Shown in pieces: positions 3,574 through 14,535 of a stretch of 14,988 nt of DNA; the first letter of the stretch is position 1; the number at the start of each line of letters is the position of its first letter. The DNA is taken from assembly GCA_021789095.1 (NCBI GenBank), contig JAJYJX010000043.1, positions 1 to 14,988 on the forward strand, written 5' to 3'. The position numbers and the translations under genes were made by a program. Origin of the DNA: a bacterium (GTDB lineage: Bacteria; JAMCPX01). The notes beneath the pieces were generated by a model. It searched no databases. It worked only from the letters and a program-made list of their open reading frames with translations, and had not been told where the DNA came from.

Positions 3574-3825
3574 ATGGATCGCACAGAAATTTACAATCTC
3601 ATTACCACATTCTTTACGGAACAATTTGAGATCCCTCACGAAAAAATTAAGCCTGCTGCCAATCTTTTCAAGGACCTTGGTCTGGACAGCATAGATGCTC
3701 TGGATATGGTCGGTATGCTGGAGTCGCAGATAAACCTTGATATAAATGTAGAGGAACTAACTCACATACGCACCGTCCAGGATGTCGTGGATTTTGTTTT
3801 CTCTAAAGTCAATGTTACCGCATGA
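3574..3825 (+). CDS. Acyl carrier protein
   Basis: An 83-residue acyl carrier protein, the usual length. The phosphopantetheine attachment motif reads LGLDSIDALDMV with Ser39 as the modified residue. The helix after it is acidic and hydrophobic as expected (MLESQINLDINVEEL). It would carry the growing acyl or polyketide chain as a thioester in the cytoplasm. ATG 3574 has ribosome site AGGGAG (3562-3567) six bases upstream. It is the first gene of a compact + strand operon: the first dehydratase starts 12 bases after its stop. The phosphopantetheinyl transferase at 6063-7547 is the obvious candidate to activate it. Its DSI rather than the DSL of housekeeping AcpP, and its placement with pathway genes, suggest a dedicated carrier, like the ApeE/ApeF carriers of aryl polyene clusters. 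Confidence 0.93.
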   Translation: MDRTEIYNLITTFFTEQFEIPHEKIKPAANLFKDLGLDSIDALDMVGMLESQINLDINVEELTHIRTVQDVVDFVFSKVNVTA

Positions 3826-3837
3826 TATCCCTTTACA

Positions 3838-4209
3838 ATGAGCGAACCCTGGGTCATCCCTGAAAAATTTATTCACTCAGCCAATGGTACAGAGGGCCAT
3901 TTTTTAATTCCCGTTCATTCTCCTTGGTTTTCCGGACATTTCCCGGACATGCCTGTTTTGCCGGCCATCGGCATGCTGGGCATGGTTTACGATACTCTTG
4001 CCGCGCATACGGCCCATAACGGTATCCGGCTAACGATCCGTGGAATGAAACGGGTCCGGTTCAGGCAAATCCTGGAGCCGGGATCGCGTTTCATAGTATC
4101 GATCTCCTTGAATACCTCAACGGATGCTTCTCAGGTTCTCTTTCATTGTGTGTCAGGCGATACGAAAGCCTGCGATGGGATTCTTCTTGTCAGCAAGGGA
4201 AACTCCTGA
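3838..4209 (+). CDS. FabZ/ApeI-like hotdog dehydratase
   Basis: A 123-residue single-hotdog protein resembling 3-hydroxyacyl-ACP dehydratases. The active-site segment reads FSGHFPDMPVLPAIGMLG (31-48), matching the FabZ pattern HFPGxPVMPGVLxxE. His34 is kept, but the position of the catalytic Glu is Gly48. Aryl polyene ApeI-type proteins also depart from canonical FabZ here, so it may be that subtype rather than a dead enzyme. Predicted role: removal of water from a 3-hydroxyacyl-ACP to give a 2-enoyl chain. The ATG at 3838 lies 12 bases after the ACP stop; no clear ribosome site is visible, so coupling to ACP translation is likely. The next dehydratase begins 11 bases after its stop. Alternative: a structural partner that heterodimerises with the ApeP-like protein. 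Confidence 0.82.
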   Translation: MSEPWVIPEKFIHSANGTEGHFLIPVHSPWFSGHFPDMPVLPAIGMLGMVYDTLAAHTAHNGIRLTIRGMKRVRFRQILEPGSRFIVSISLNTSTDASQVLFHCVSGDTKACDGILLVSKGNS

Positions 4210-4220
4210 GGACACAGAGC

Positions 4221-4673
4221 ATGTATACTATCGAAGATTTTATCCCCCACCGGGACAGGATGAGATTAATAGATGACATTGTCGAGGTCGATGATGACCA
4301 CTGTGTGACACAATCCGTTGCCTCGCCCCTCTGGCCGCTGTGCGACGGTGAGCGGATCAACTCCATCATTATCGTGGAACTTGTCGCGCAGACAGCTTCT
4401 GCCTTTGTAGGATGGCTCAGGCGCAATAAGGTGAAAATGGGTGGTAAGGGCTTTATCGTGGGGATAAAAAAGGCTGACTTTTTTGTCCCGGACATTCCGG
4501 TCGGAAGCCGTCTCAGGACTTCCTGCAAAATGCGGGTAACCCTTGACAATGCTTACGGCGAGTTCGAAGGCGACGTAAAAGACGGCAACACAAGTTATGG
4601 TCACGTACTCCTTCAGACCTTCAGCGGTCAGATGCCCGCAGCAGACAAGGGAAACCTCCTGCCAAAAACATGA
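4221..4673 (+). CDS. ApeP-like hotdog 3-hydroxyacyl-ACP dehydratase
   Basis: A 150-residue hotdog protein. Features of the ApeP-type dehydratase group are the N-terminal IEDFIPHRDRMRLIDDIV (4-21; His10 in the place of the catalytic His), VELVAQTASAFVGW (52-65; Glu53 in the helix) and GFIVGIKKADF (77-87). It would act on ACP-bound 3-hydroxy chains beside the preceding hotdog protein. I chose ATG 4221 rather than the in-frame ATG at 4146 because the longer form would overlap the previous gene by 64 bases with residues foreign to the family, while 4221 has ribosome site GAGGA (4208-4212) eight bases upstream and starts just before the conserved IPHR motif. It ends in an ATGA overlap with the ligase gene, indicating tight co-translation. 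Confidence 0.86.
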   Translation: MYTIEDFIPHRDRMRLIDDIVEVDDDHCVTQSVASPLWPLCDGERINSIIIVELVAQTASAFVGWLRRNKVKMGGKGFIVGIKKADFFVPDIPVGSRLRTSCKMRVTLDNAYGEFEGDVKDGNTSYGHVLLQTFSGQMPAADKGNLLPKT

Positions 4674-6061
4674 CACGCCAGGACGTGATTCATGCCTTTA
4701 CCCTCGGCAGCGAAGCACTGAAGGGTAAATATACCACCGGCGGGACCTCCTACAGAGAGGTTTTTGATCTGGCATCCGGCATATATGCATGGAGTTTACA
4801 TGAACAAAAAACTGACAGCCCTCTTTGCCTTGCGACGCGGGACAAGGCGCTCCTCATGGCCGCAATCCTCGCATCTCTTGCCGGCGGTCCTTTCCTGGTC
4901 CTCCCTGCATCTCTATCGGACGCTTCAATCGCTGAAACATGTCAAATAATTGGTGCAAGCGCCGTTTTATCCGATCAACCCATTGCGATACCGAAGGGCA
5001 TACAGTCCGTTCCCCTGCGTAGAGAAAGAACGGATGCACCGGCCTGGCATCTCAAGAGGAAAATAGATAAACCATTTCTGTGGTTGTATACCGGCGGCTC
5101 CACCGGAGCCCCAAAACTCTGGCCTAAAACCCCTCATAACATCATTGGCGAAGCCCTAAACCTTAAAAAGGTATTTGCCATAAACGAAACGGATATCCTT
5201 CTCTCCACCGTCCTCCCGCTCCATATTTACGGCCTGCTATTCTCGGTACTCCTGCCTTTTGTTTCTAAGGCACGCGTTATTGATGACATACCCTATTTTC
5301 CACGGGAGATTGTCCGGACAGCTGCCCGGACAAGGTGTACTGTATTCATTGGCTCGCCTATGCACTACCGGGCACTTTCCACATCTTCATTTCGCTTGAC
5401 ACATCTCAAACTCGCCTTTTCATCGGGAGGTTTTTTGGAAAAATCTCATAGTCTTCATTTTACCCGTGCCACCGGAACAGGTGTCACGGAGGTTTACGGC
5501 TCCACCGAAACAGGCGGGATTGCTACCCGTTGTATAGCAGATGGAAAATCTGCATGGCAGCCTTTTTCCTGTGTCCGCTGGACGATTGATGGAGAACGGC
5601 TCTCCGTATCGTCTCCATTCCTGTCACCGAATCTGCACATAAATAAAAAAGGGTTTTTTACTACCGGGGACAGAGCTGCGGGTTCCGGTGACGGAACATT
5701 TATCCTTCATGGCAGGGCAGACGGGATAGTAAAAATAGGCGGCAAGCGGGTCGACCTGAATGCGATCGAGCAAAAAATCAAATCTCTTCCATGGATCATG
5801 GATGCATGGGTTCTCTCTCTCCCTTCCAGGACAGGACGTGAAAACGAGATCGCTGTACTTGTCGTGACAAAAAGAACACTCCCCTCTCTCAGGAAAGCTT
5901 TTGCCAAGATACTGGAGCCCACTCACATGCCGAGACGGATCATTAGTGTCCCTTCCATCCCAACAACCCCTGCGGGTAAAAAGGACCGCCGCACAGCGCT
6001 CTCCCTCCTCTCTCAACCGGGAAACATCCCAAAGCACAAACCCCATGAGGAGGATAACTGA
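4670..6061 (+). CDS. AMP-forming acyl/aryl-CoA or -ACP ligase (ApeH-like)
   Basis: A 463-residue ANL-superfamily adenylating enzyme, somewhat shorter than the usual 500-550. Core motifs are all present: P-loop YTGGSTGAPK (140-149), VTEVYGSTETGG (272-283; A5), FTTGDRA (330-336; A7), ILHGRADGIVKIGGKRVD (345-362; A8 hinge) and PAGKKDR near residue 434 (A10 lysine). It would activate a carboxylic acid with ATP and pass it to CoA or to the operon's ACP, probably to supply a starter unit or recycle a free chain. Its length and placement after ACP-DH-DH match ApeH of aryl polyene clusters. The starter (aryl or fatty) cannot be told from the sequence by eye. It is the last gene of the + operon; its stop lies one base from the stop of the convergent operon. 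Confidence 0.88.
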   Translation: MTRQDVIHAFTLGSEALKGKYTTGGTSYREVFDLASGIYAWSLHEQKTDSPLCLATRDKALLMAAILASLAGGPFLVLPASLSDASIAETCQIIGASAVLSDQPIAIPKGIQSVPLRRERTDAPAWHLKRKIDKPFLWLYTGGSTGAPKLWPKTPHNIIGEALNLKKVFAINETDILLSTVLPLHIYGLLFSVLLPFVSKARVIDDIPYFPREIVRTAARTRCTVFIGSPMHYRALSTSSFRLTHLKLAFSSGGFLEKSHSLHFTRATGTGVTEVYGSTETGGIATRCIADGKSAWQPFSCVRWTIDGERLSVSSPFLSPNLHINKKGFFTTGDRAAGSGDGTFILHGRADGIVKIGGKRVDLNAIEQKIKSLPWIMDAWVLSLPSRTGRENEIAVLVVTKRTLPSLRKAFAKILEPTHMPRRIISVPSIPTTPAGKKDRRTALSLLSQPGNIPKHKPHEEDN

Positions 6062-6062
6062 T

Positions 6063-7547
6063 TTACGCCCCGGGAATTTCCAGGACAGTGAATAGATGAT
6101 CGTCCACAGCAGCATGGACTGCCTCAACTGCCCTGCCCTCAATTGATACAATACTTCGATCCTCTTTGATCTCCTTCAGCTCAACCCTGGACCACATAAC
6201 TGCAATCGGTATATCAAGTACCTTTGCTGCACATTCCTTTGCTGTCCAGACCCTGATTGCTGCCTGTTCATGTCCAAGTGAGGAGCGTGCACAGAGGGCT
6301 TGCTCGCTTGATGTCATATAGATATACGCTCCTTTCAGAAGATTGCCGTTAAGCCGTTCTACGTCTACACCTATGGGGTGGCGTCCTCCTACAGCAACAG
6401 CAAAGCGGTCGTCGTGAGACGCACTGCAGTAAAATTTCTGTTCGTTTCCGGACAGAATGCACGCCGGATGGATGCCGTCCGGGGCAATAGTCTCTATGAG
6501 TGCCGGATCCACGGGAACTCCGGTTTTGTAGAGGATACGCGAAAGGCGTTTGAGTGCAATCCTCGCTCCTCTGTGCCTGCTTCTTTTGCCCGGATGCCGC
6601 CTGTTCACTACTTCCAGCTCATGCGGTGACAATATTTTTTCCGCAAACGGCAAAATGCTTGCCAACTCTACTACGGAAACACCCTGGATCTTTCCCCTGA
6701 TCGCGCGGAGATCGTCCTGCCCTGCTGTCTTTACCCAGTCAGGCACAGGCATTTTACCTTTGAATACGTCCTTCATCCGCACGCCGAATGCTGCCTCGCG
6801 CAGCGCTCCGTTCCGATCATATATCCATATATCAAAATTAAGGGTGCCCTTTTCTTTGCCTCCCGGCAAGACCCTGCAAAAATAGGATTCCCCGGCTACC
6901 GTCGGGTGAATAATTGTTCTGCCGGTATAGCCTACCGGGAAAGCGATATACCCTGAATAGCGCTGTCCCCATGCGCAAGCGACGTGGAACGCCGCATCAA
7001 GGACAAACGGAGAGCCCAAAGGAGGATTGAGAGTTTCATGATGCGGCGCCTTAATGGCTGCTACGGCTCCGTCATTGAACAGGAACACGGTTCCTACGGC
7101 ATTTTGGAATGACGGGCCAAACGGGACCATCTCCGCATACAGCCGTTCAGCCGGGACCTGACAGCATATTCCTTCGGCCGCACACGCACTGTCCAGAGGC
7201 AGCGGGACAAAGGCACCTATGTCGGCAAATGTTACACGGACGTGGTCACGTACGCGTGAAATGCCGGTGCGCGATGCTTGTGCAAAAGTCCCCAGAGCCG
7301 CGGCCACTGCGCCGTTCCCCTTCACCTCGATATCTGCAATAACCTCTATCTCCGGTTTCGCGGCAGGGAGTTCAAGGAACCTGAGGAATTCGGCATTGCG
7401 GGAATTCAACACTTTCTTTCCCGGGCACCCTGCTGCTACAGTTTCGGCAAGCCTCTCAAGGGATTCCACAGCTGGATACACAGCCTGCCCCTCCACCCTG
7501 TGGTCGGCAAGGTAAGGATGGTTTCTCAGCTTTAATACCAGGCGCAT
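6063..7547 (-). CDS. PKS dehydratase - Sfp-type phosphopantetheinyl transferase fusion
   Basis: A 494-residue two-domain protein. Residues about 1-270 are a double-hotdog polyketide synthase dehydratase: LADHRVEGQAVYP (13-25; His16, the HxxxGxxxxP motif), PFGPSFQ (142-148; the YGPxF motif) and VLDAAFH (182-188; Asp184). Residues about 280-494 are an Sfp-type PPTase with SASHD (375-379), IGVDVERL (392-399) and WTAKECAAK (434-442), the Mg/CoA-binding motifs. It should both dehydrate 3-hydroxy chains and convert apo-ACP to holo-ACP. ATG 7547 is chosen: it falls 8 bases after the thioesterase stop and just before the DH motif, whereas the longer frame to 7613 overlaps the thioesterase by 58 bases. 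No good ribosome site is near, so coupling is likely. A DH-PPTase C-terminal order is known from enediyne PKSs; here it stands alone. Confidence 0.88.
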   Translation of the reverse strand: MRLVLKLRNHPYLADHRVEGQAVYPAVESLERLAETVAAGCPGKKVLNSRNAEFLRFLELPAAKPEIEVIADIEVKGNGAVAAALGTFAQASRTGISRVRDHVRVTFADIGAFVPLPLDSACAAEGICCQVPAERLYAEMVPFGPSFQNAVGTVFLFNDGAVAAIKAPHHETLNPPLGSPFVLDAAFHVACAWGQRYSGYIAFPVGYTGRTIIHPTVAGESYFCRVLPGGKEKGTLNFDIWIYDRNGALREAAFGVRMKDVFKGKMPVPDWVKTAGQDDLRAIRGKIQGVSVVELASILPFAEKILSPHELEVVNRRHPGKRSRHRGARIALKRLSRILYKTGVPVDPALIETIAPDGIHPACILSGNEQKFYCSASHDDRFAVAVGGRHPIGVDVERLNGNLLKGAYIYMTSSEQALCARSSLGHEQAAIRVWTAKECAAKVLDIPIAVMWSRVELKEIKEDRSIVSIEGRAVEAVHAAVDDHLFTVLEIPGA

Positions 7548-7555
7548 GAGGTTTT

Positions 7556-8035
7556 TTATTTCGGGAATGTCTCCCACAGATGAACGGTTTTTTTGTCTAC
7601 GGCAACAGGCCATCCCGATACTTTCATCGCACAGTGCTGTGTAAACCCGGTACAGACGATCTTACCTGTCTCCGCGTGGGCAATGATATAACGGAATGCG
7701 ACTTTGACTTTGCTTATCTCCGCGGGACGCGTATAAATCCACATGGGATCGTCGTAATACAGGGGAGAATGATAACTCACGCCGAGGTCTATAATAGGAT
7801 ATACGTATCCGCTGTCTTCCACTTCCTTGTACGGGTACCCGATATCCCTCATCAGACTTGTCCGGCCCAATTCAAAATATCTCAGATAATTGGCATGATA
7901 AACGACCTCCGAACGATCCGTATCCGCATAGAGTGTCCGGTTGAACACTTTATGCCAGACAAGCTTGCCAACAGCGTCCCGGACGAACGGAGAACCCTCA
8001 TTAAGCGCTTCCGGCTTAAACGGCTGCGGTCTCAT
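7556..8035 (-). CDS. YbgC/FadM-type hotdog acyl thioesterase
   Basis: A 159-residue 4HBT-family thioesterase. The signature LYADTDRSEVVYHANYLRYF (35-54) matches the YbgC/FadM motif, with the Asp of TDRSEVV (D40) in the usual catalytic position. It would hydrolyse acyl-CoA or acyl-ACP thioesters, either releasing the finished chain or clearing stalled ones. Aryl polyene clusters also carry a thioesterase of this type. The N-terminal 25 residues precede the fold and are unusual but coded from a well-supported start: ATG at 8033-8035 abuts the ketosynthase stop codon (8036-8038) with no gap, and AAGGGGG, inside the end of the ketosynthase gene, lies at suitable spacing. It is the third gene of the - operon. 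Confidence 0.88.
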   Translation of the reverse strand: MRPQPFKPEALNEGSPFVRDAVGKLVWHKVFNRTLYADTDRSEVVYHANYLRYFELGRTSLMRDIGYPYKEVEDSGYVYPIIDLGVSYHSPLYYDDPMWIYTRPAEISKVKVAFRYIIAHAETGKIVCTGFTQHCAMKVSGWPVAVDKKTVHLWETFPK

Positions 8036-9301
8036 CTATACCCCCTTGAATACGATACAGCAATTCGTCCCGCCGAAACCAAAGGCATTGGACATGGCAA
8101 TTTCGGACTTCTGCTTTCTCAATTCATTGGGTACAACGTCAACGTCATGAAATGCCGGGTCAGGGATGTGGTTCATTGTCGGGAGGATAATTCCTTGCTG
8201 CATACCCTCTATAGTCAGTGCGCCCTCGATTGCGGCGGCCGCTCCCAGGGTATGTCCGATCTGCGATTTATTGGACGATACAGGAATGTGCTCAAGAGCT
8301 CTGTTAAACACCTCACGCAGACAATTTATTTCATTAAGGTCACCCTTTGGTGTAGAAGTGCCGTGTGTATTTACATACCGGATATCAGCAGGACCCAGGC
8401 CCGCATCATCGATGGCCTCCTGCATTGCCCGGATAACCGTTGGCCCGTTGGGCCTTGTGAAATGATGGGCGTCCGATGTCCAGCCTACGCCTAAAACCTC
8501 GGCCCTCGGCTTGAGACCATAGATGGGAATCATTTCTTCGGCTGCCAGGACCATGACTCCTGCACCCTCGGACAATACAAAACCCTGGCGATCGATGCTG
8601 AACGGCCTGGACGCCTGTCCGGGCTCATTCCATGCACGGTCTTTTTCCGACACCTTTATTGTTGCGTTCATGTTGGCAAACCCGTGCAGGATCTCCGGCA
8701 TAATCGGGGTGTCGACTCCGCCGGCAAGCACAAAATCACTGTCACCGTCTCTTATCATTCTTGCACCAATACCTATTGCATAGTTGCCTGAAGCACATGC
8801 TCCTTGTGGAGAAAAGATGGGACCCGTGAACCCCAAAAGCATGCTTGCCTTTCCGGAAGGGAGATTGGCACAGAGATTGGGGAGAAGGTAGTTGCTGACG
8901 CTGTTTGCCCCCCTCTCTTTCAAATTGATCATCGCGGTCCTATAAGCGTCATGCCCGTTGATTGCAGAACCTATCAGACATGCGGTCCTCTCTTTTACAC
9001 CGTCAACCATCTCAAGTCCTGCATGTGCCAATGCATCCTTGCATACCGCCATTGTCAGAATTACATACATTGCGTTCCATTCCTTGGCTTCTTTCTCGCT
9101 GGAAAAATCTAATTTCGCCGGATTCCAATCAGGAATTTCTCCAACAACATTGGCCGGCGTATCCGCCTTGCATCTTGTAACACGCCTGAATCCGGTTTCC
9201 CCTTTTATGGCCCTTTTCCATGTTTCTTCCAGAGTCTTCCCCAACGGTGTTGCAACAGCATATCCTACTACAAAGACACGCCTATTTTTAGGTGATTTCA
9301 T
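8036..9301 (-). CDS. Beta-ketoacyl-ACP synthase, FabF-like (KS1)
   Basis: A 421-residue condensing enzyme of the FabF/type II PKS class, full length. The Cys-His-His triad is complete: Cys169 in GACASGNYA, His313 in NTHGTSTPKGD and His350 in NKSQIGHTLGAAAA. The C-terminus keeps NAFGFGGTN. It would condense an acyl primer with malonyl-ACP. ATG 9301 has GAGGGAGGG directly upstream, overlapping the end of the previous ketosynthase gene 9 bases away. Sequence elements such as ASRPFS.DR.GFVLSEGAG are shared with the neighbouring ketosynthase, so the two are distant paralogues. It is not a chain-length factor, since the active-site Cys is retained. Aryl polyene clusters likewise hold more than one ketosynthase. 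Confidence 0.92.
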   Translation of the reverse strand: MKSPKNRRVFVVGYAVATPLGKTLEETWKRAIKGETGFRRVTRCKADTPANVVGEIPDWNPAKLDFSSEKEAKEWNAMYVILTMAVCKDALAHAGLEMVDGVKERTACLIGSAINGHDAYRTAMINLKERGANSVSNYLLPNLCANLPSGKASMLLGFTGPIFSPQGACASGNYAIGIGARMIRDGDSDFVLAGGVDTPIMPEILHGFANMNATIKVSEKDRAWNEPGQASRPFSIDRQGFVLSEGAGVMVLAAEEMIPIYGLKPRAEVLGVGWTSDAHHFTRPNGPTVIRAMQEAIDDAGLGPADIRYVNTHGTSTPKGDLNEINCLREVFNRALEHIPVSSNKSQIGHTLGAAAAIEGALTIEGMQQGIILPTMNHIPDPAFHDVDVVPNELRKQKSEIAMSNAFGFGGTNCCIVFKGV

Positions 9302-9310
9302 GTCCCTCCC

Positions 9311-10561
9311 TCATCCGATCCTGTGAAATATTATGCAGGCATTGGCACCGCCGAAGCCGAATGCGTTTTTTAAAACATACTCCTGCTTAAGTGTTCTTGC
9401 AGACCCGGGCACACAGTCCATGCTTATTGACGGGTCAGGCGCATAGTTTATCGTTGGAAGGATCGTATCCTTCATCATCCCTTCCATGGTAAATATACTC
9501 TCCAGGGCACTGGATGCGCCCATTGCGTGGCCGATCATGGATTTATTGGCGCTTACCGGTGGGATTTTATCCCCGAAGACCTGCTGAAGAGCCATATACT
9601 CCACCTCATCCCCTAATTTGGTGGAGGCTGCATGCGCATTGACTGCACTGATGTGCGCAGGGCTGATGCCGGCATGTTTAATAGCACCATGAATACAATG
9701 CACAATCGTGTCCTGTCTGGGTGCTACAGAGTGGTAGGCATCGGCGGTCATGGACCAGCCCGCTAACTCTATAGTATATTTTAATCCGTATGCCTCGGCA
9801 AATTCCCGCGTTGACAGTATTATACATCCGGCCCCCTCTGATATTATGAATCCGCGCCTGTTCATGGAAAATGGCCTGCTTGCCCGGGCGGGCTCTTCCG
9901 GAGGGGGCTGTGTACTATTTTGATATGCACCATTCATGGTGGCAAACCCGGCCACAATGCTTTCTACAAGAGGGAAATCCACTGCCCCGCAAATGGCCAC
10001 ATCTGCCATGCCGTCCTGCAACAACATCGATCCTATGATCATCGATGTACTTCCCGTGGCACACGCCGTGACCGTGGTCACGATAGGGCCCGTGGCATTG
10101 GCAAGGATGGCTATCTTGCCTCCTACCATATTGATGCAGGAATTCGGGTTCACGTATGGCTTGGGCAATTGTCCGGATTTTACCATGGTCCTGTCCGCAT
10201 CAAGGACAGCGTCAAGCCCTCCGATGGCAGTGCTGAATGTGGTCGCTGTTCTCGGTGATAGTTCATCGGTAATTTTCAACCCGGTCTTTTCCAGTGCCCG
10301 ATGGACCACAAGCATTCCATATTTAAAAATCGGCGATTTCCAGTGTACCATTTCTCTGGGTCTTAAAAAGGGATAAGGGGTAACGTCCACGTCAGGGACC
10401 TGGCCTGCTACCTGCACAGGAAAATTATCTCTCAATGGAAATCTTGTAAGAGGGCCTATACCGCTGTGTCCCTCCACTGCTTTACTCCATTGATCCTCAA
10501 AGACAATGCCCAGGGGAGACACGAAATCATATCCCAGGACCACGGGTCTAACCATTTTCAT
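9311..10561 (-). CDS. Beta-ketoacyl-ACP synthase, FabF-like (KS2)
   Basis: A 416-residue ketosynthase, first gene of the - operon. Triad residues are Cys167 in TACATGSTS, His310 in NAHAASTKLGD and His345 in NKSMIGHAMGAS. The second motif reads NAHAAST where most FabF proteins have NTHGTST. A Pro-rich insertion (TQPPPEEP, 217-224) precedes the conserved ASRPFS segment. It may act on a different chain length from KS1 or form a heterodimer with it. ATG 10561 is preceded by GAGG at good spacing; a Met two codons on is an alternative. The upstream spacer is full of palindromes, so its promoter is not obvious; read-through from the radical SAM gene 324 bases upstream is possible. Confidence 0.9.
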   Translation of the reverse strand: MKMVRPVVLGYDFVSPLGIVFEDQWSKAVEGHSGIGPLTRFPLRDNFPVQVAGQVPDVDVTPYPFLRPREMVHWKSPIFKYGMLVVHRALEKTGLKITDELSPRTATTFSTAIGGLDAVLDADRTMVKSGQLPKPYVNPNSCINMVGGKIAILANATGPIVTTVTACATGSTSMIIGSMLLQDGMADVAICGAVDFPLVESIVAGFATMNGAYQNSTQPPPEEPARASRPFSMNRRGFIISEGAGCIILSTREFAEAYGLKYTIELAGWSMTADAYHSVAPRQDTIVHCIHGAIKHAGISPAHISAVNAHAASTKLGDEVEYMALQQVFGDKIPPVSANKSMIGHAMGASSALESIFTMEGMMKDTILPTINYAPDPSISMDCVPGSARTLKQEYVLKNAFGFGGANACIIFHRIG

Positions 10562-10885: not shown

Positions 10886-11887
10886 TTACCACGGGATGAA
10901 ACGGTATAATTTGGCAAACATTTCATAGACCTCGACCCAGTGCTGGAAATCCTCAGAACTCCGCATGTGCGCCCGCTTATTAACCATTACCCAGCTCATG
11001 TGTGCAGCTCCGTCTTTACACGTGGTACAATCCCGGGTAGCCGATGTGCAGCACCTATGCATAGTTTCGAGGTCAGCTCCCCATCGTATAAACCGTATAA
11101 GCCGCTTGGGCTGGGGGGCACGCGTATCCATGGGCTCGGTTACCGACGGGCATTCGGTCCAGCCCCATGTCCGGTCCAGCATCTTTCCTGTTGTGATTAT
11201 TTTGTGGTAGTACTTACTGGAGATAACGGTATTGCTGTACCTTTCCAGCATATCGTCCATTTCCTTTCGCACACGTTCAAGTATCTCAGGTGTCCACACA
11301 AAACCTTCTACATCCTCATCATTCGAAAACAACTGGAGATGGACCTTTAGCCCTGCGTCCGCTATCTTTTTTACAATACGTTCAATCGTACCCGTTCCAA
11401 CCTGCTTGGGTGTTATCGTGTACAGATAATACGTGTAAGGATCGCCCTGATAATTCTTCAGCGATATGCTGAAGGTGTCCTTGCCGCGCAGAAGCTTCTC
11501 TTCGTGCTCATCACCCCACAGGGAGATCCCGACCATCATATCAGGGAACCGGTCCCTGGGGACTTTGATGAGGCCGTTTGTTGCACAATATGTGGGGATG
11601 CGTTTGTAAAATGCCTCAATTCTGTCAAGAAAGAGCGTTGGTTCCCCGCCGATCAATATAGCAAGGGTTACCCCTCTTTCCTTCTCCTTCTCTACAAATT
11701 TCTCCCATTTGCCGAGGTCTGCCTCTTCTTGCAGTTTGTGTTCGTCGGAGGAAAAAAAGAAACAGCCTTTACATCTCAGGTTGCACTTGTTTGTTACATC
11801 GTAGATGGAACTGCGTATATTGAGATTAGCAATTGCGTTATACCGTTTTTTCCATTCTCCGCTGATAAGTGTGCTTACAGTATGCAT
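10886..11887 (-). CDS. Radical SAM enzyme 1 with C-terminal cysteine set
   Basis: A 333-residue radical SAM protein. The CX3CX2C motif CNLRCKGCFFF (Cys35, 39, 42) binds the [4Fe-4S] cluster that cleaves S-adenosylmethionine; ILIGGEPTL (78-85) is the GGE motif that holds the SAM amine. Later cysteines occur as C246, C279-C280, C287 and C290, which could bind an auxiliary cluster. The second radical SAM protein at 12567-13655 has the same arrangement, plus shared ISLWG and TNGL segments. The reaction is unknown: the family spans C-C bond formation, methylation and epimerisation. ATG 11887 lies 11 bases after the lipoprotein stop, with a weak purine-rich ribosome site, so the two are probably co-transcribed. 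Oxygen-sensitive chemistry is expected, fitting an anaerobe. Confidence 0.88.
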   Translation of the reverse strand: MHTVSTLISGEWKKRYNAIANLNIRSSIYDVTNKCNLRCKGCFFFSSDEHKLQEEADLGKWEKFVEKEKERGVTLAILIGGEPTLFLDRIEAFYKRIPTYCATNGLIKVPRDRFPDMMVGISLWGDEHEEKLLRGKDTFSISLKNYQGDPYTYYLYTITPKQVGTGTIERIVKKIADAGLKVHLQLFSNDEDVEGFVWTPEILERVRKEMDDMLERYSNTVISSKYYHKIITTGKMLDRTWGWTECPSVTEPMDTRAPQPKRLIRFIRWGADLETMHRCCTSATRDCTTCKDGAAHMSWVMVNKRAHMRSSEDFQHWVEVYEMFAKLYRFIPW

Positions 11888-11898
11888 TCTTCTCTTTC

Positions 11899-12492
11899 TC
11901 AGCGGGCGGAAACTGCGCGCTCGAATCCCCGGTCTTCCAACATCGTTTTTACCATCTTATCGATCATCCTGTATGCCCGCTTCTCAAGAAGCCGTGCATC
12001 GGTCGTTGCCGCGGGTTCCATTGTTATCGTGAAACGCTTTTGGAAAGGTGCGCCTTTCCCGTGCACGCTGATCATATACTGGAATTGCTGGTCCGTAATA
12101 GACTCCAGGGTAATATCAACCTCCGGAGCAGTTGTAGCCTGGTCCATGCTATATACCTTAAGCCCTGCACGCTCCAGTGCCTTTTGAATACTGTACCAGA
12201 AATATGACGTCAGACTTGGCCAGCTTTCATAGGTAATAGTTCCTTCAGGGTTATAGTAGTACCATGTTGTTGTGTTGTTTGCCTGATTATCTATATTGGC
12301 CAAATATATTGATTTTTTATGATACAGGGAAGGCGTTCTTCCCAATTCCGGAAAATAATTTTCTTGCTTGATCTCTACCTTTTCCGAGCCCCCTCTGATA
12401 GCGTGTCTGCACCCCCCGGCAAATAAAGCTATAACTATAGCCAGCGTGCTTATCCCTGCAAATACACCAAAAATGCTATTTCTTTTCCGCAT
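11899..12492 (-). CDS. Predicted lipoprotein of unknown function
   Basis: A 197-residue protein with a lipoprotein signal: RKR at the N-terminus, a hydrophobic stretch (residues 8-25) and a lipobox-like AGGC ending at Cys28. After lipidation it would sit in the inner or outer membrane facing the periplasm. The mature part has PEVDITLESITDQQFQYMI and other beta-strand-like segments; the overall pattern (short lipoprotein, conserved ALERAGLKV) recalls auxiliary lipoproteins of lipid-transport ABC systems, but I cannot assign a family. The ATG at 12492 has a near-consensus ribosome site, AAAGGAGGAG (12496-12505). It is placed between the two radical SAM genes, 74 bases after one and 11 before the other. 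Aryl polyene clusters also include an envelope lipoprotein, but similarity to that one is not visible. Confidence 0.78.
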   Translation of the reverse strand: MRKRNSIFGVFAGISTLAIVIALFAGGCRHAIRGGSEKVEIKQENYFPELGRTPSLYHKKSIYLANIDNQANNTTTWYYYNPEGTITYESWPSLTSYFWYSIQKALERAGLKVYSMDQATTAPEVDITLESITDQQFQYMISVHGKGAPFQKRFTITMEPAATTDARLLEKRAYRMIDKMVKTMLEDRGFERAVSAR

Positions 12493-12566
12493 AAGCTCCT
12501 CCTTTAGGTTTAATTGTTATTTTTAAAACAGAAAATATTCCATTGTCCTGTAGAATTTGTATTACA

Positions 12567-13655
12567 TTAAAACCCGGGGGGTTGCTCTATGTGAGAACAC
12601 AGGTTTTCCCCCTTCTCATATCCTTTAACCCAGACGGCAAGGTACGTATCCACGTAGTCAAGCCATGACTTGAAGATCTCCGGGTTCCCGGTATGCCTGC
12701 TTAGCTTTGATGTAACTATAGCGCTCCCTGCGGCATAATGCCTGCAGTCATTGCAATCCGTGTCCGGAACACAACAAGCCGCGGCTCTATCCCATGTAAG
12801 ATCGGTTCTGTATTGCCGGAATGATCTGCCGAGTCCGAATGTAACGGATGGGTTCATGCGTGGATACGGGCACGAAAATAACTGGTACAGGCTGCTCTGA
12901 TGGGTATGAACAACTGTATTATAATATGAAAACAACACCGCCTCCGGGTGTTTTTCCATCAGATCTATCATGACACGGCGGACCTTATTCAGGGTTTCCG
13001 GGGTATGCAGCAGATTTCCGGAATAGTCCAGCGGTGTGGAAAACACATTGAACGTGATTTTGCAGTTGTGCGAGGCCAGAATCCCGGCAACTTCATTGGC
13101 TTCATCAATGGTTTCCCGGCAAAAAGTGTATACGAAAACCGCACGCGGGTCTCCCGCGTAATTATCGATCTGTTTTTTTAGAAGGTCCCTGGCTTTTCTA
13201 ACCCTGTAACTGGTTTCATCGTTGCCCCACACTGAAATGTGTATCTTATATCCGACTGATTCCGGAATACGCTTCAGTCCGTTCGTAGCTATACAACCTA
13301 ATGGGATTTCCTGGTAACACGCTTTCAGCAGATCGGGTACCAGGGAAGGCTCTGCCCCGGCAAGAACCACGAATGTTATGCCTCTCTTCTTCTCCTGACG
13401 GAAAAGGTCGCTCCATGCCTGAGGATCAAGATTTTCCCGGGTAAATTGTTTTTCGCCATTATAGTAGTAACAACCATCGCACCGCATATTACATCGTGTG
13501 GCCATGTCATACGTTGATTCCCTCAGAAAAAAGTATTTCCTGACCTTTTCCCATCGTTCACGCACACGTGTTTCCATGAGAAGGTCTGCGAATTTCCATT
13601 CTCTGGATAACGGTAAATTTTCCTGAAAATTTAATGCTGTATTGTCTGACCCCAT
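12567..13655 (-). CDS. Radical SAM enzyme 2, paralogue of the neighbouring one
   Basis: A 362-residue radical SAM protein. CNMRCDGCYYY (Cys55, 59, 62) binds the catalytic [4Fe-4S] cluster; VLAGAEPSL takes the place of the GGE motif, with Gly-Ala-Glu. A C-terminal cysteine set (C262, C294-C295, C301, C304) mirrors that of radical SAM enzyme 1. Other shared segments are KKRGITF, CIATNGLKRIP, ISVWG and YAGDPRA. I chose ATG 13655, preceded by AGGGG (13666-13670), rather than the TTG at 13691 that would add 12 residues. A -35-like TTGACA (13697-13702) lies upstream but the 16-base-spaced -10 (TAATTT) is poor. It lies 74 bases before the lipoprotein gene on the same strand. The substrate may be an ACP-bound chain from the adjacent pathway; that is inference from position. 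Confidence 0.86.
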   Translation of the reverse strand: MGSDNTALNFQENLPLSREWKFADLLMETRVRERWEKVRKYFFLRESTYDMATRCNMRCDGCYYYNGEKQFTRENLDPQAWSDLFRQEKKRGITFVVLAGAEPSLVPDLLKACYQEIPLGCIATNGLKRIPESVGYKIHISVWGNDETSYRVRKARDLLKKQIDNYAGDPRAVFVYTFCRETIDEANEVAGILASHNCKITFNVFSTPLDYSGNLLHTPETLNKVRRVMIDLMEKHPEAVLFSYYNTVVHTHQSSLYQLFSCPYPRMNPSVTFGLGRSFRQYRTDLTWDRAAACCVPDTDCNDCRHYAAGSAIVTSKLSRHTGNPEIFKSWLDYVDTYLAVWVKGYEKGENLCSHIEQPPGF

Positions 13656-13791
13656 TATATTTATGCCCCTAAAAAAATTACATGTCTCCAAGTTATTGTC
13701 AAGACTTTGTAATCGTTGTTAATTAACCGGGAAACAGAGGGGAGGGGAGAAAACTCTTCCTGCTTGCGTTTTTCTGGTTAAGACAGGAAAA

Positions 13792-14535
13792 TTATTTCAA
13801 AACCTGGATTATAGCGTGCCCCTTAAGGATCAACTTATTATGCACGGCGATAAACCAGGATAAATTGGGCGCGGTCATGCCGAAATCCGTAAACGCAGCA
13901 TTGATTATCGCAGAAATGACAAACTCATTATTTCCTATTTTTTTAAAGGCTACAGCAGTGTCAAAGTCTTTTGCCCCGCCTGCTACGGTAAGTCTGCCGG
14001 TTACATGAATCTCGCCATTATCTGCGTTGATAGCATTGAGGATATCCTCTCTGAGTTTTCCATCTACCAGCAGCTCTTCTCCGCCTAACCGCAACACCAA
14101 TGGAGCGTTTTCTTTATCCGGAATAAGGATATCAACGGTCATATTCTGAGGATCGGCTTTAATGTCCACGTTTTTATTGAGCGGACGCAGGGCCTTTGAT
14201 ATGCTTTCTCCCCCGATTTTCAATATTTCAAAGGTTATTTCCGGATATTTGTCGGACTTCAAATACAGCGTTTTTACCGACCAGTCTCTCATAGGTCTGT
14301 CGGTTTTAAATCCAGAGGACGAGATCATAAGCTTTGCTGCAGCGCTTTCAGGAGAGGCGAGCAGTTTAATGGAAAGGTCATCATTGCGTCCAATTACCGT
14401 TTTTAGGGCAGACCCCAGATTGGTTTCATGTGCCTCATACGTGACATACGCATTGGTAACACGGAATTCTATGACCGGTCTCTGCTGCGCCGTGATAAGC
14501 ATTGAATGGAGTAATAAACCTGCCAGGAAAATCAT
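13792..14535 (-). CDS. YceI-like secreted lipid-binding protein
   Basis: A 247-residue protein with a hydrophobic N-terminus (residues 2-15) suggesting export, possibly cut after the Ala of LITAQQ; it lacks the usual N-terminal Arg/Lys, so cleavage is uncertain. The mature part follows the YceI pattern: IEFRVTNAYVTYEAH (23-37), KTDRPMRDWSVKTLYLKSDKYPEITF (the MRD..L....YPxIxF hallmark), then HVTGRLTVAGGAKDF and AFTDFGMTAP near the C-terminus. YceI beta-barrels bind polyisoprenoids or other long lipids in the periplasm. About 60 residues between the YPEITF and TGRLTV parts are longer than in simple YceI proteins. ATG 14535 has ribosome site AAAGGAGGT eight bases upstream. Its place in the - strand run beside lipid-type enzymes suggests, but does not prove, that it carries or shields the product. 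Confidence 0.75.
   Translation of the reverse strand: MIFLAGLLLHSMLITAQQRPVIEFRVTNAYVTYEAHETNLGSALKTVIGRNDDLSIKLLASPESAAAKLMISSSGFKTDRPMRDWSVKTLYLKSDKYPEITFEILKIGGESISKALRPLNKNVDIKADPQNMTVDILIPDKENAPLVLRLGGEELLVDGKLREDILNAINADNGEIHVTGRLTVAGGAKDFDTAVAFKKIGNNEFVISAIINAAFTDFGMTAPNLSWFIAVHNKLILKGHAIIQVLK

Follow-up and report, generated by a model that had tools for sequence, protein, structure and literature searches.

An obligate pair of radical SAM paralogues with a conserved five-cysteine set and a predicted auxiliary iron-sulfur site in aryl-polyene-like gene clusters

Introduction

What role do two diverged radical SAM enzymes, with the same unusual set of C-terminal cysteines, play within a cluster of fatty acid and polyketide synthesis genes? 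The question is raised by a stretch of bacterial DNA of 14,988 nucleotides, referred to here as the window, which is one whole contig (GenBank assembly GCA_021789095.1, contig JAJYJX010000043.1). The known kin of its source genome are eight further genomes of one family; the other genomes used for comparison share only the domain with it. An earlier note on this DNA had proposed that the cysteines conserved in the two proteins, here called RS1 and RS2, form a functional auxiliary iron-sulfur site. The family to which they belong has no NCBIfam name, is widespread in anaerobic bacteria and is strictly paired, and its host clusters, of no known product, tend to be labelled "aryl polyene" or "ladderane" by genome miners.

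Results

Sequence motifs of RS1 and RS2

RS1 (positions 10886 to 11887) and RS2 (12567 to 13655) are both encoded on the minus strand. RS1 is an open reading frame of 333 amino acids which matches the Pfam Radical_SAM model at 1.5e-9, over the cut-off, with C-x3-C-x2-C present. RS2 comprises 362 amino acids when read from its ATG, although the list of open reading frames makes a TTG at 13691 a possible alternative start. Its score against the same model (1.5e-6, 28.9 bits) lies just below the curated cut-off of 29.5; it is a clear homologue of RS1, the two aligning end to end with 29% identity across 314 residues (E 4e-44). RS1 and RS2 are true paralogues of the radical SAM superfamily.

Both proteins carry the CNxRCxGC motif and the following aromatic triplet that had been described for them: CNLRCKGC and FFF in RS1 (C35, C39 and C42; 11762 to 11785, minus strand), CNMRCDGC and YYY in RS2 (C55, C59 and C62; 13470 to 13493, minus strand). 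The C-terminal pattern given in the earlier note, C-x31/32-CC-x5/6-C-x2-C, is likewise exactly as claimed. The predicted auxiliary-site cysteines are spaced C246-x32-C279-C280-x6-C287-x2-C290 in RS1 (11018 to 11152, minus strand) and C262-x31-C294-C295-x5-C301-x2-C304 in RS2 (12744 to 12872, minus strand). Comparison with homologues places a GGE motif at residues 80-82 of RS1 (11642 to 11650, minus strand); its counterpart in RS2 is GAE, at residues 100-102 (13350 to 13358, minus strand).

Conservation of the cysteine set

When the same number of cysteines was placed at random in each protein (400,000 trials per protein), the C-terminal pattern arose in no trial for RS1 and in 13 for RS2. On the sequences compared, conservation is a stronger proof of the pattern than this test. 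Orthologues of RS1, 72-91% identical to it, occur in Desulfobacterota, Spirochaetota, Myxococcota and the window's own family, and all five C-terminal cysteines, as well as the three of the barrel motif, are invariant in the 91 RS1-type homologues. Among the 81 RS2-type homologues the barrel motif is kept in 80, with one gap; C294, C295, C301 and C304 are found in every sequence, and C262 is aligned in 79; in the two exceptions the corresponding cysteine is present but more closely spaced. Loss of the set in close homologues, which the earlier note had named as evidence against a functional site, was looked for and was seen in none of these sequences. The pattern C-xn-CC-x4-6-C-x2-C is also present in plasmid relatives from Burkholderia, Alteromonas and Tistrella (GGE type), in Methylomagnum and in one further bacterial family (both GAE, grouping with RS2), and Planctomycetota relatives also keep the cysteine set; a SPASM enzyme included in the same motif comparison as a control does not have the pattern. 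The proposal that the set is functional and not a product of chance is thus borne out: no close homologue has lost it, and it persists in relatives that have diverged widely. The aromatic triplet is family-wide. Furthermore, the residue before the third barrel cysteine is a glycine in all family members compared, at a position that is usually aromatic in radical SAM enzymes (CX3CX-phi-C; PMC6231123).

GGE is present in every RS1 row of the motif comparison, and all 81 RS2-type homologues have GAE. In a tree of 43 rows RS1 and RS2 fall in separate groups, each fully supported, although the tree is in effect unrooted and its long branches meet. The GGE and GAE motifs mark two old lineages, which is compatible with divided roles. 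The GAE of RS2 had been taken as a hint of such a division; it is fixed in the RS2 clade and present in its distant relatives, but GAE alone is no demonstration of divided roles, and the obligate pairing of the two genes (see below) is the better argument.

The gene cluster around the pair

Downstream of RS1 on the minus strand lie KS2 (9311 to 10561), a FabF-type ketosynthase which adjoins RS1 in nearly all long loci, and a second such ketosynthase, KS1 (8036 to 9301). These are followed by an acyl thioesterase of the YbgC/4HBT type (7556 to 8035), which is ApeK-like and 33% identical to the thioesterase of the E. coli aryl polyene (APE) cluster, and by a fusion of a PKS-type dehydratase and a 4'-phosphopantetheinyl transferase (6063 to 7613), which has a homologue in 53 loci; a sequence search of the PDB with this fusion as the query found nothing. 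A plus-strand operon encodes an acyl carrier protein (ACP; 3574 to 3825; 45% identical to the APE ACP), a FabA/ApeI-like dehydratase (3838 to 4209), an ApeP-like dehydratase (4218 to 4673) and an AMP-dependent acyl/aryl-ACP ligase (4670 to 6061), which is ApeH-like (28%). RS1 and RS2 are separated in the window by a small lipoprotein-like open reading frame (11899 to 12492), which is absent from most other loci.

The order RS2-RS1-KS2-KS1-TE-DH(PPT), where TE is the thioesterase and DH(PPT) the dehydratase fusion, recurs almost throughout the best 80 genome loci, and the gap between RS2 and RS1 has a median of 38 bp over 70 loci. Among 79 genomes drawn from the family of a Desulforhopalus genome, 43 gave a match; both genes are present in nearly all of the 43, and only short fragments depart from this. 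The pair is obligate, and the clusters that house it, in Desulfobacterota, Spirochaetota, Myxococcota and the candidate phylum of the window, are of an aryl-polyene-like type II kind. Other genes often found nearby encode a B12 radical SAM enzyme (38 loci), a polysaccharide deacetylase (24), a PlsY-like acyltransferase (20), an MMPL-methyltransferase (15), FabG (13), ApeP (12), LolA (12) and an AMP ligase (9).

Compared with the APE cluster of E. coli CFT073 (c1186-c1204), the window has homologues of the ACP, ApeI, ApeP, ApeH and the thioesterase at 28-45% identity, and sister loci add a ketoreductase (KR), ApeO with a chain length factor, ApeR, GT2, LPLAT, LolA and MMPL. KR, the ketosynthase-chain length factor and LolA/MMPL export are not in the 15 kb contig, but two homologous loci, L060 and L084, have them. 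The E. coli cluster, however, has no annotated radical SAM gene, whereas the clusters described here have the added module RS2-RS1-KS2-KS1-TE-DH(-PPTase). Judged by gene content, an APE-like type II cluster to which an RS2-RS1-KS-KS-TE-DH module has been added is the best description. We know of no product for any such cluster.

Place among radical SAM subfamilies

A profile search against radical SAM subgroups and SPASM models, suggested as a check in the earlier note, gave matches of RS1 and RS2 to the generic radical SAM core only, in NCBIfam as in Pfam. No NCBIfam family claims RS1, RS2 or the five classes of relatives, the best scores being about 24-40 bits against listed cut-offs of at least 131 bits. 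Neither protein matches the Pfam SPASM model (PF13186), which the control, a SPASM enzyme from a Desulforhopalus cluster (L084:6817-7854), matches at 2.9e-8. The SPASM motif has seven cysteines, C-x9-15-G-x4-C ... C-x2-C-x5-C-x3-C ... C. Like the SPASM enzymes anSME, PqqE, SuiB and CteB (fold Z 13-17), RS1 and RS2 have a barrel and a cysteine-rich C-terminal extension, but with five C-terminal cysteines in place of seven and neither the C-x9-15-G-x4-C nor the C-x2-C-x5-C-x3-C element. The departure of the double cysteine from the SPASM pattern, which had been remarked on before, is therefore real, in that the motif differs and the model is silent on both proteins while detecting the control. 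Membership of the SPASM group was rejected on the arrangement of the five cysteines and on this result. By these sequence comparisons, RS1 and RS2 are assigned to one unnamed radical SAM family, marked by a fixed set of five cysteines that is peculiar to it.

The best profile match was SkfB, a Twitch enzyme (6.5e-10, core only). RS1 and RS2 share with the Twitch enzymes SkfB, BtrN, SpeY and MoaA a barrel with a short C-terminal extension. As in those enzymes, a putative hairpin region would be flanked by cysteines, with a C-x-C or C-x2-C pair further on. They differ from them in the adjacent CC, in a gap between CC and C-x2-C that is just 4-6 residues long and has no alpha2' helix, in a detectable sequence similarity that is confined to the core and in lacking a peptide-binding domain.

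Predicted structures

Confident AlphaFold models were built from the locus alignments for RS1 (pLDDT 90.7, pTM 0.91) and RS2 (pLDDT 88.2, pTM 0.89). Both show a radical SAM barrel with a C-terminal extension, and Twitch and SPASM enzymes are among the nearest solved folds. For RS1 these are BlsE (Z 18.3, rmsd 3.5, 255 residues aligned), SkfB (17.9, 4.5, 244) and SuiB (17.3, 2.9, 229); for RS2 the nearest is SkfB (18.5, 4.2, 243), which is thus first or second for both models. They are followed by anSME, viperin and MoaA (Z 13-18), and most of these rankings are effectively tied; the viperins, which have no auxiliary cluster, lie within 1-2 Z of the top matches.

In the RS1 model C246 is followed by two strands (267-268 and 276-277), C279-C280, C287-x2-C290 and a helix (293-301). 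This order fits that of the Twitch site in BtrN and SkfB, where a cysteine, a hairpin, a cysteine and the last cysteine pair succeed one another (PMC6231123), although the strands are only two residues long and are poorly shown by the RS2 model. No helix of at least 4 residues corresponding to the Twitch helix alpha2' is seen between the hairpin and the last cysteine pair in either model. The CC and C-x2-C elements are 6 residues apart in RS1 and 5 in RS2, and it is because of these six residues that the site of RS1 would be a compressed one. The best reading of the cysteine set is as a compact Twitch-like site for one predicted auxiliary Fe-S cluster.

Discussion

A literature search, which covered few subscription papers, found no biochemistry for this kind of enzyme. 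The explanation that we prefer, at somewhat under an even chance, is that RS1 and RS2 have a Twitch-like auxiliary Fe-S site and act sequentially on a carrier-bound acyl chain with an oxidative outcome. The barrel of each enzyme would hold the SAM-binding [4Fe-4S] cluster and the short C-terminal extension one auxiliary cluster, its putative ligands being C246 in RS1 or C262 in RS2, one cysteine of the CC pair and both cysteines of C-x2-C. If four cysteines hold the cluster then one of the five is left over and could donate hydrogen, serve as an alternative ligand or have a structural part; the second cysteine of CC would be a spare ligand or a thiol taking part in the reaction. RS1 and RS2 would act in succession while the chain is tethered to the ACP of the aryl-polyene-like type II fatty acid/polyketide system. 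Hydrogen abstraction from the chain by the 5'-deoxyadenosyl radical would leave an electron for the auxiliary cluster to accept, and the chain would end up oxidised (desaturated or cyclised) with no need for oxygen.

That the two enzymes probably modify a fatty chain on a carrier protein is suggested by their distant relatives. The Methylomagnum relative lies beside ACP and NRPS genes, those of Alteromonas and Burkholderia beside a PaaA/PaaC-type diiron protein with MaoC or 4HBT hotdog proteins, and those of Planctomycetota beside an LbpA-like GcvH, lipoyl ligases, further radical SAM proteins and Hdr-like proteins, a gene set that resembles the sHdr-LbpA-LipS1/LipS2 systems (PMC10332631). Members from one family (f29) had no carrier gene among the neighbours scanned. 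We infer a carrier-bound substrate because carrier or thioester genes recur in these contexts, which are unrelated in other respects. The plasmid- and sHdr-linked relatives offer simpler systems in which to find the chemistry. A further-reaching but doubtful version of this explanation makes the family a new one, whose auxiliary cluster would sit in a fold of its own (C - CC - C-x2-C) and which would be specialised for acyl chains attached to carrier domains (ACP, CoA or lipoyl protein). The RS1-RS2 pair would then modify the chain without oxygen in a way that has no precedent in the synthesis of polyene lipids, such as desaturation, ring closure or an insertion of sulfur for which the auxiliary cluster would be sacrificed.

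Alternatively, the pair could make or edit the starter (the head group) instead of the chain: a small acid derived from an amino acid or an aromatic compound would be rearranged or decarboxylated by radical chemistry, and the ApeH-like ligase would then load it onto the ACP. APE-type systems do start from a special acid loaded by ApeH, such a ligase is present here, and the top of the fold list for RS1 is occupied by BlsE, a small-molecule enzyme. The pair, however, is placed with KS2-KS1-TE-DH and not with the ligase, whose homologue occurs in few loci, and family members elsewhere adjoin carrier or thioester genes with no ApeH-like ligase noted; we think this unlikely. It is also conceivable, if rather improbable, that CC is catalytic, one of its cysteines donating a hydrogen atom in a redox-neutral epimerisation or isomerisation of a chain centre while the other four hold the cluster. 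This would explain why five cysteines are invariant although no more than four are needed to hold a site-bound cluster, and EpeE, an epimerase crystallised as its C223A variant, is among the fold matches, C223 being the hydrogen donor of that enzyme. EpeE is not a top match, though, and its cysteine lies elsewhere. SkfB too has five C-terminal cysteines, not all of which are ligands (PMC6231123). Finally, the extra cysteines might be structural or bind another metal, with no auxiliary Fe-S cluster at all. The viperins, themselves without one, fit the models almost as well, but the spacing and order of the cysteines agree with Twitch sites and the set is absolutely conserved alongside the radical SAM motifs, whether the host is an anaerobe or an aerobe, so that this explanation is quite improbable.

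A similar gene company raises the question of whether RS1 and RS2 are the paired SAM radical enzymes described in anammox and Desulfotalea "ladderane" clusters (Kuste3342/3343 and DP1853/DP1855; Rattray et al. 2009), where a gene pair likewise lies among ketosynthases, ACP, FabG, deacetylase and exporters. Planctomycetota genomes were recognised through PF07596. One genome, G621, is taken to be Kuenenia, on account of exactly seven ketosynthase paralogues, as reported for that organism, and of a cluster laid out as kuste3352-3335 is listed in the literature. The radical SAM pair of its cluster consists of a SPASM enzyme (46% identical to L084:6817-7854) and a B12-binding enzyme (33% to L039:5686-7035), both without the CC pattern, and the listed genomes of its family (f307) have core matches only and no full-length gene of the RS1/RS2 family. 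Furthermore, homologues of this SPASM enzyme and this B12 radical SAM enzyme directly adjoin RS2-RS1 in Desulforhopalus (L084), which makes RS1/RS2 an additional, separate pair. Identity with the ladderane-cluster pair is thus extremely improbable and orthology to Kuste3342/3343 was rejected. The ladderane-cluster reading, as used in published mining of Desulfobacterota MAGs (PMC9902471), is unsupported for RS1/RS2. The family can be recognised by CNxRCxGC-aromatic-aromatic-aromatic together with C-xn-CC-x4-6-C-x2-C, a signature which sets it apart from the anammox pair, a possible source of confusion. The HZS_alpha Pfam domain is widespread in the genomes, its best match not being recognisable as a hydrazine synthase.

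Genomic settings of the RS1/RS2 radical SAM family

In the Desulforhopalus locus (L084), the RS2-RS1 module is immediately preceded, on its upstream side, by genes for a B12 radical SAM enzyme (L084:5321-6811) and a SPASM radical SAM enzyme (L084:6817-7854), the second of which shares 46% identity with the anammox enzyme taken as Kuste3343. In the window's family RS2 is adjoined by a gene for a YceI-domain protein, of the lipid-binding type and with a signal-like N terminus (13792-14535 in the window). A second RS2 copy, cut off by a contig end (L188:6375-7166, G003:C29; 76% identity), has its own YceI gene and two B12-radical-SAM-like genes nearby, and the same genome, G003, also carries a complete RS1/RS2 pair.

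Single genes of the family are present in Planctomycetota (L171:9581-10738, L172:9566-10663, L173:5081-6196 and L174; E about 1e-70 to 1e-74), with the C-terminal cysteine pattern C-xn-CC-x4-6-C-x2-C retained. Those of L172 and L173 lie within a gene set like sHdr-LbpA sulfur-oxidation loci, comprising lipoyl ligases, a GcvH/LbpA-like protein, Fer4 and CCG proteins, along with additional radical SAM genes resembling LipS1/LipS2; the available portion of the sHdr-LbpA description in PMC10332631 does not mention a third radical SAM gene such as is found here.

On plasmids of aerobes, a compact three-gene unit (L022:14174-16529; L021:14228-16625) encodes a PaaA/PaaC-type diiron protein, a radical SAM enzyme of the family and a hotdog protein (MaoC or 4HBT), with recombinase and transposase genes near the Alteromonas copy. 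An oxygen-using enzyme is odd company for a radical SAM enzyme.

Fused proteins in the polyene-type clusters

In the window, a PKS-type double-hotdog dehydratase and a 4'-phosphopantetheinyl transferase form one fused protein (6063-7613). Sister loci encode homologues of much the same size (about 510-535 aa); the L084 dehydratase is unfused (271 aa). The 752 aa product of L060:4306-6564, a fused KS-CLF, matches two proteins of aryl polyene synthesis: ApeO, the ketosynthase (37%), and ApeC, the chain length factor (28%).
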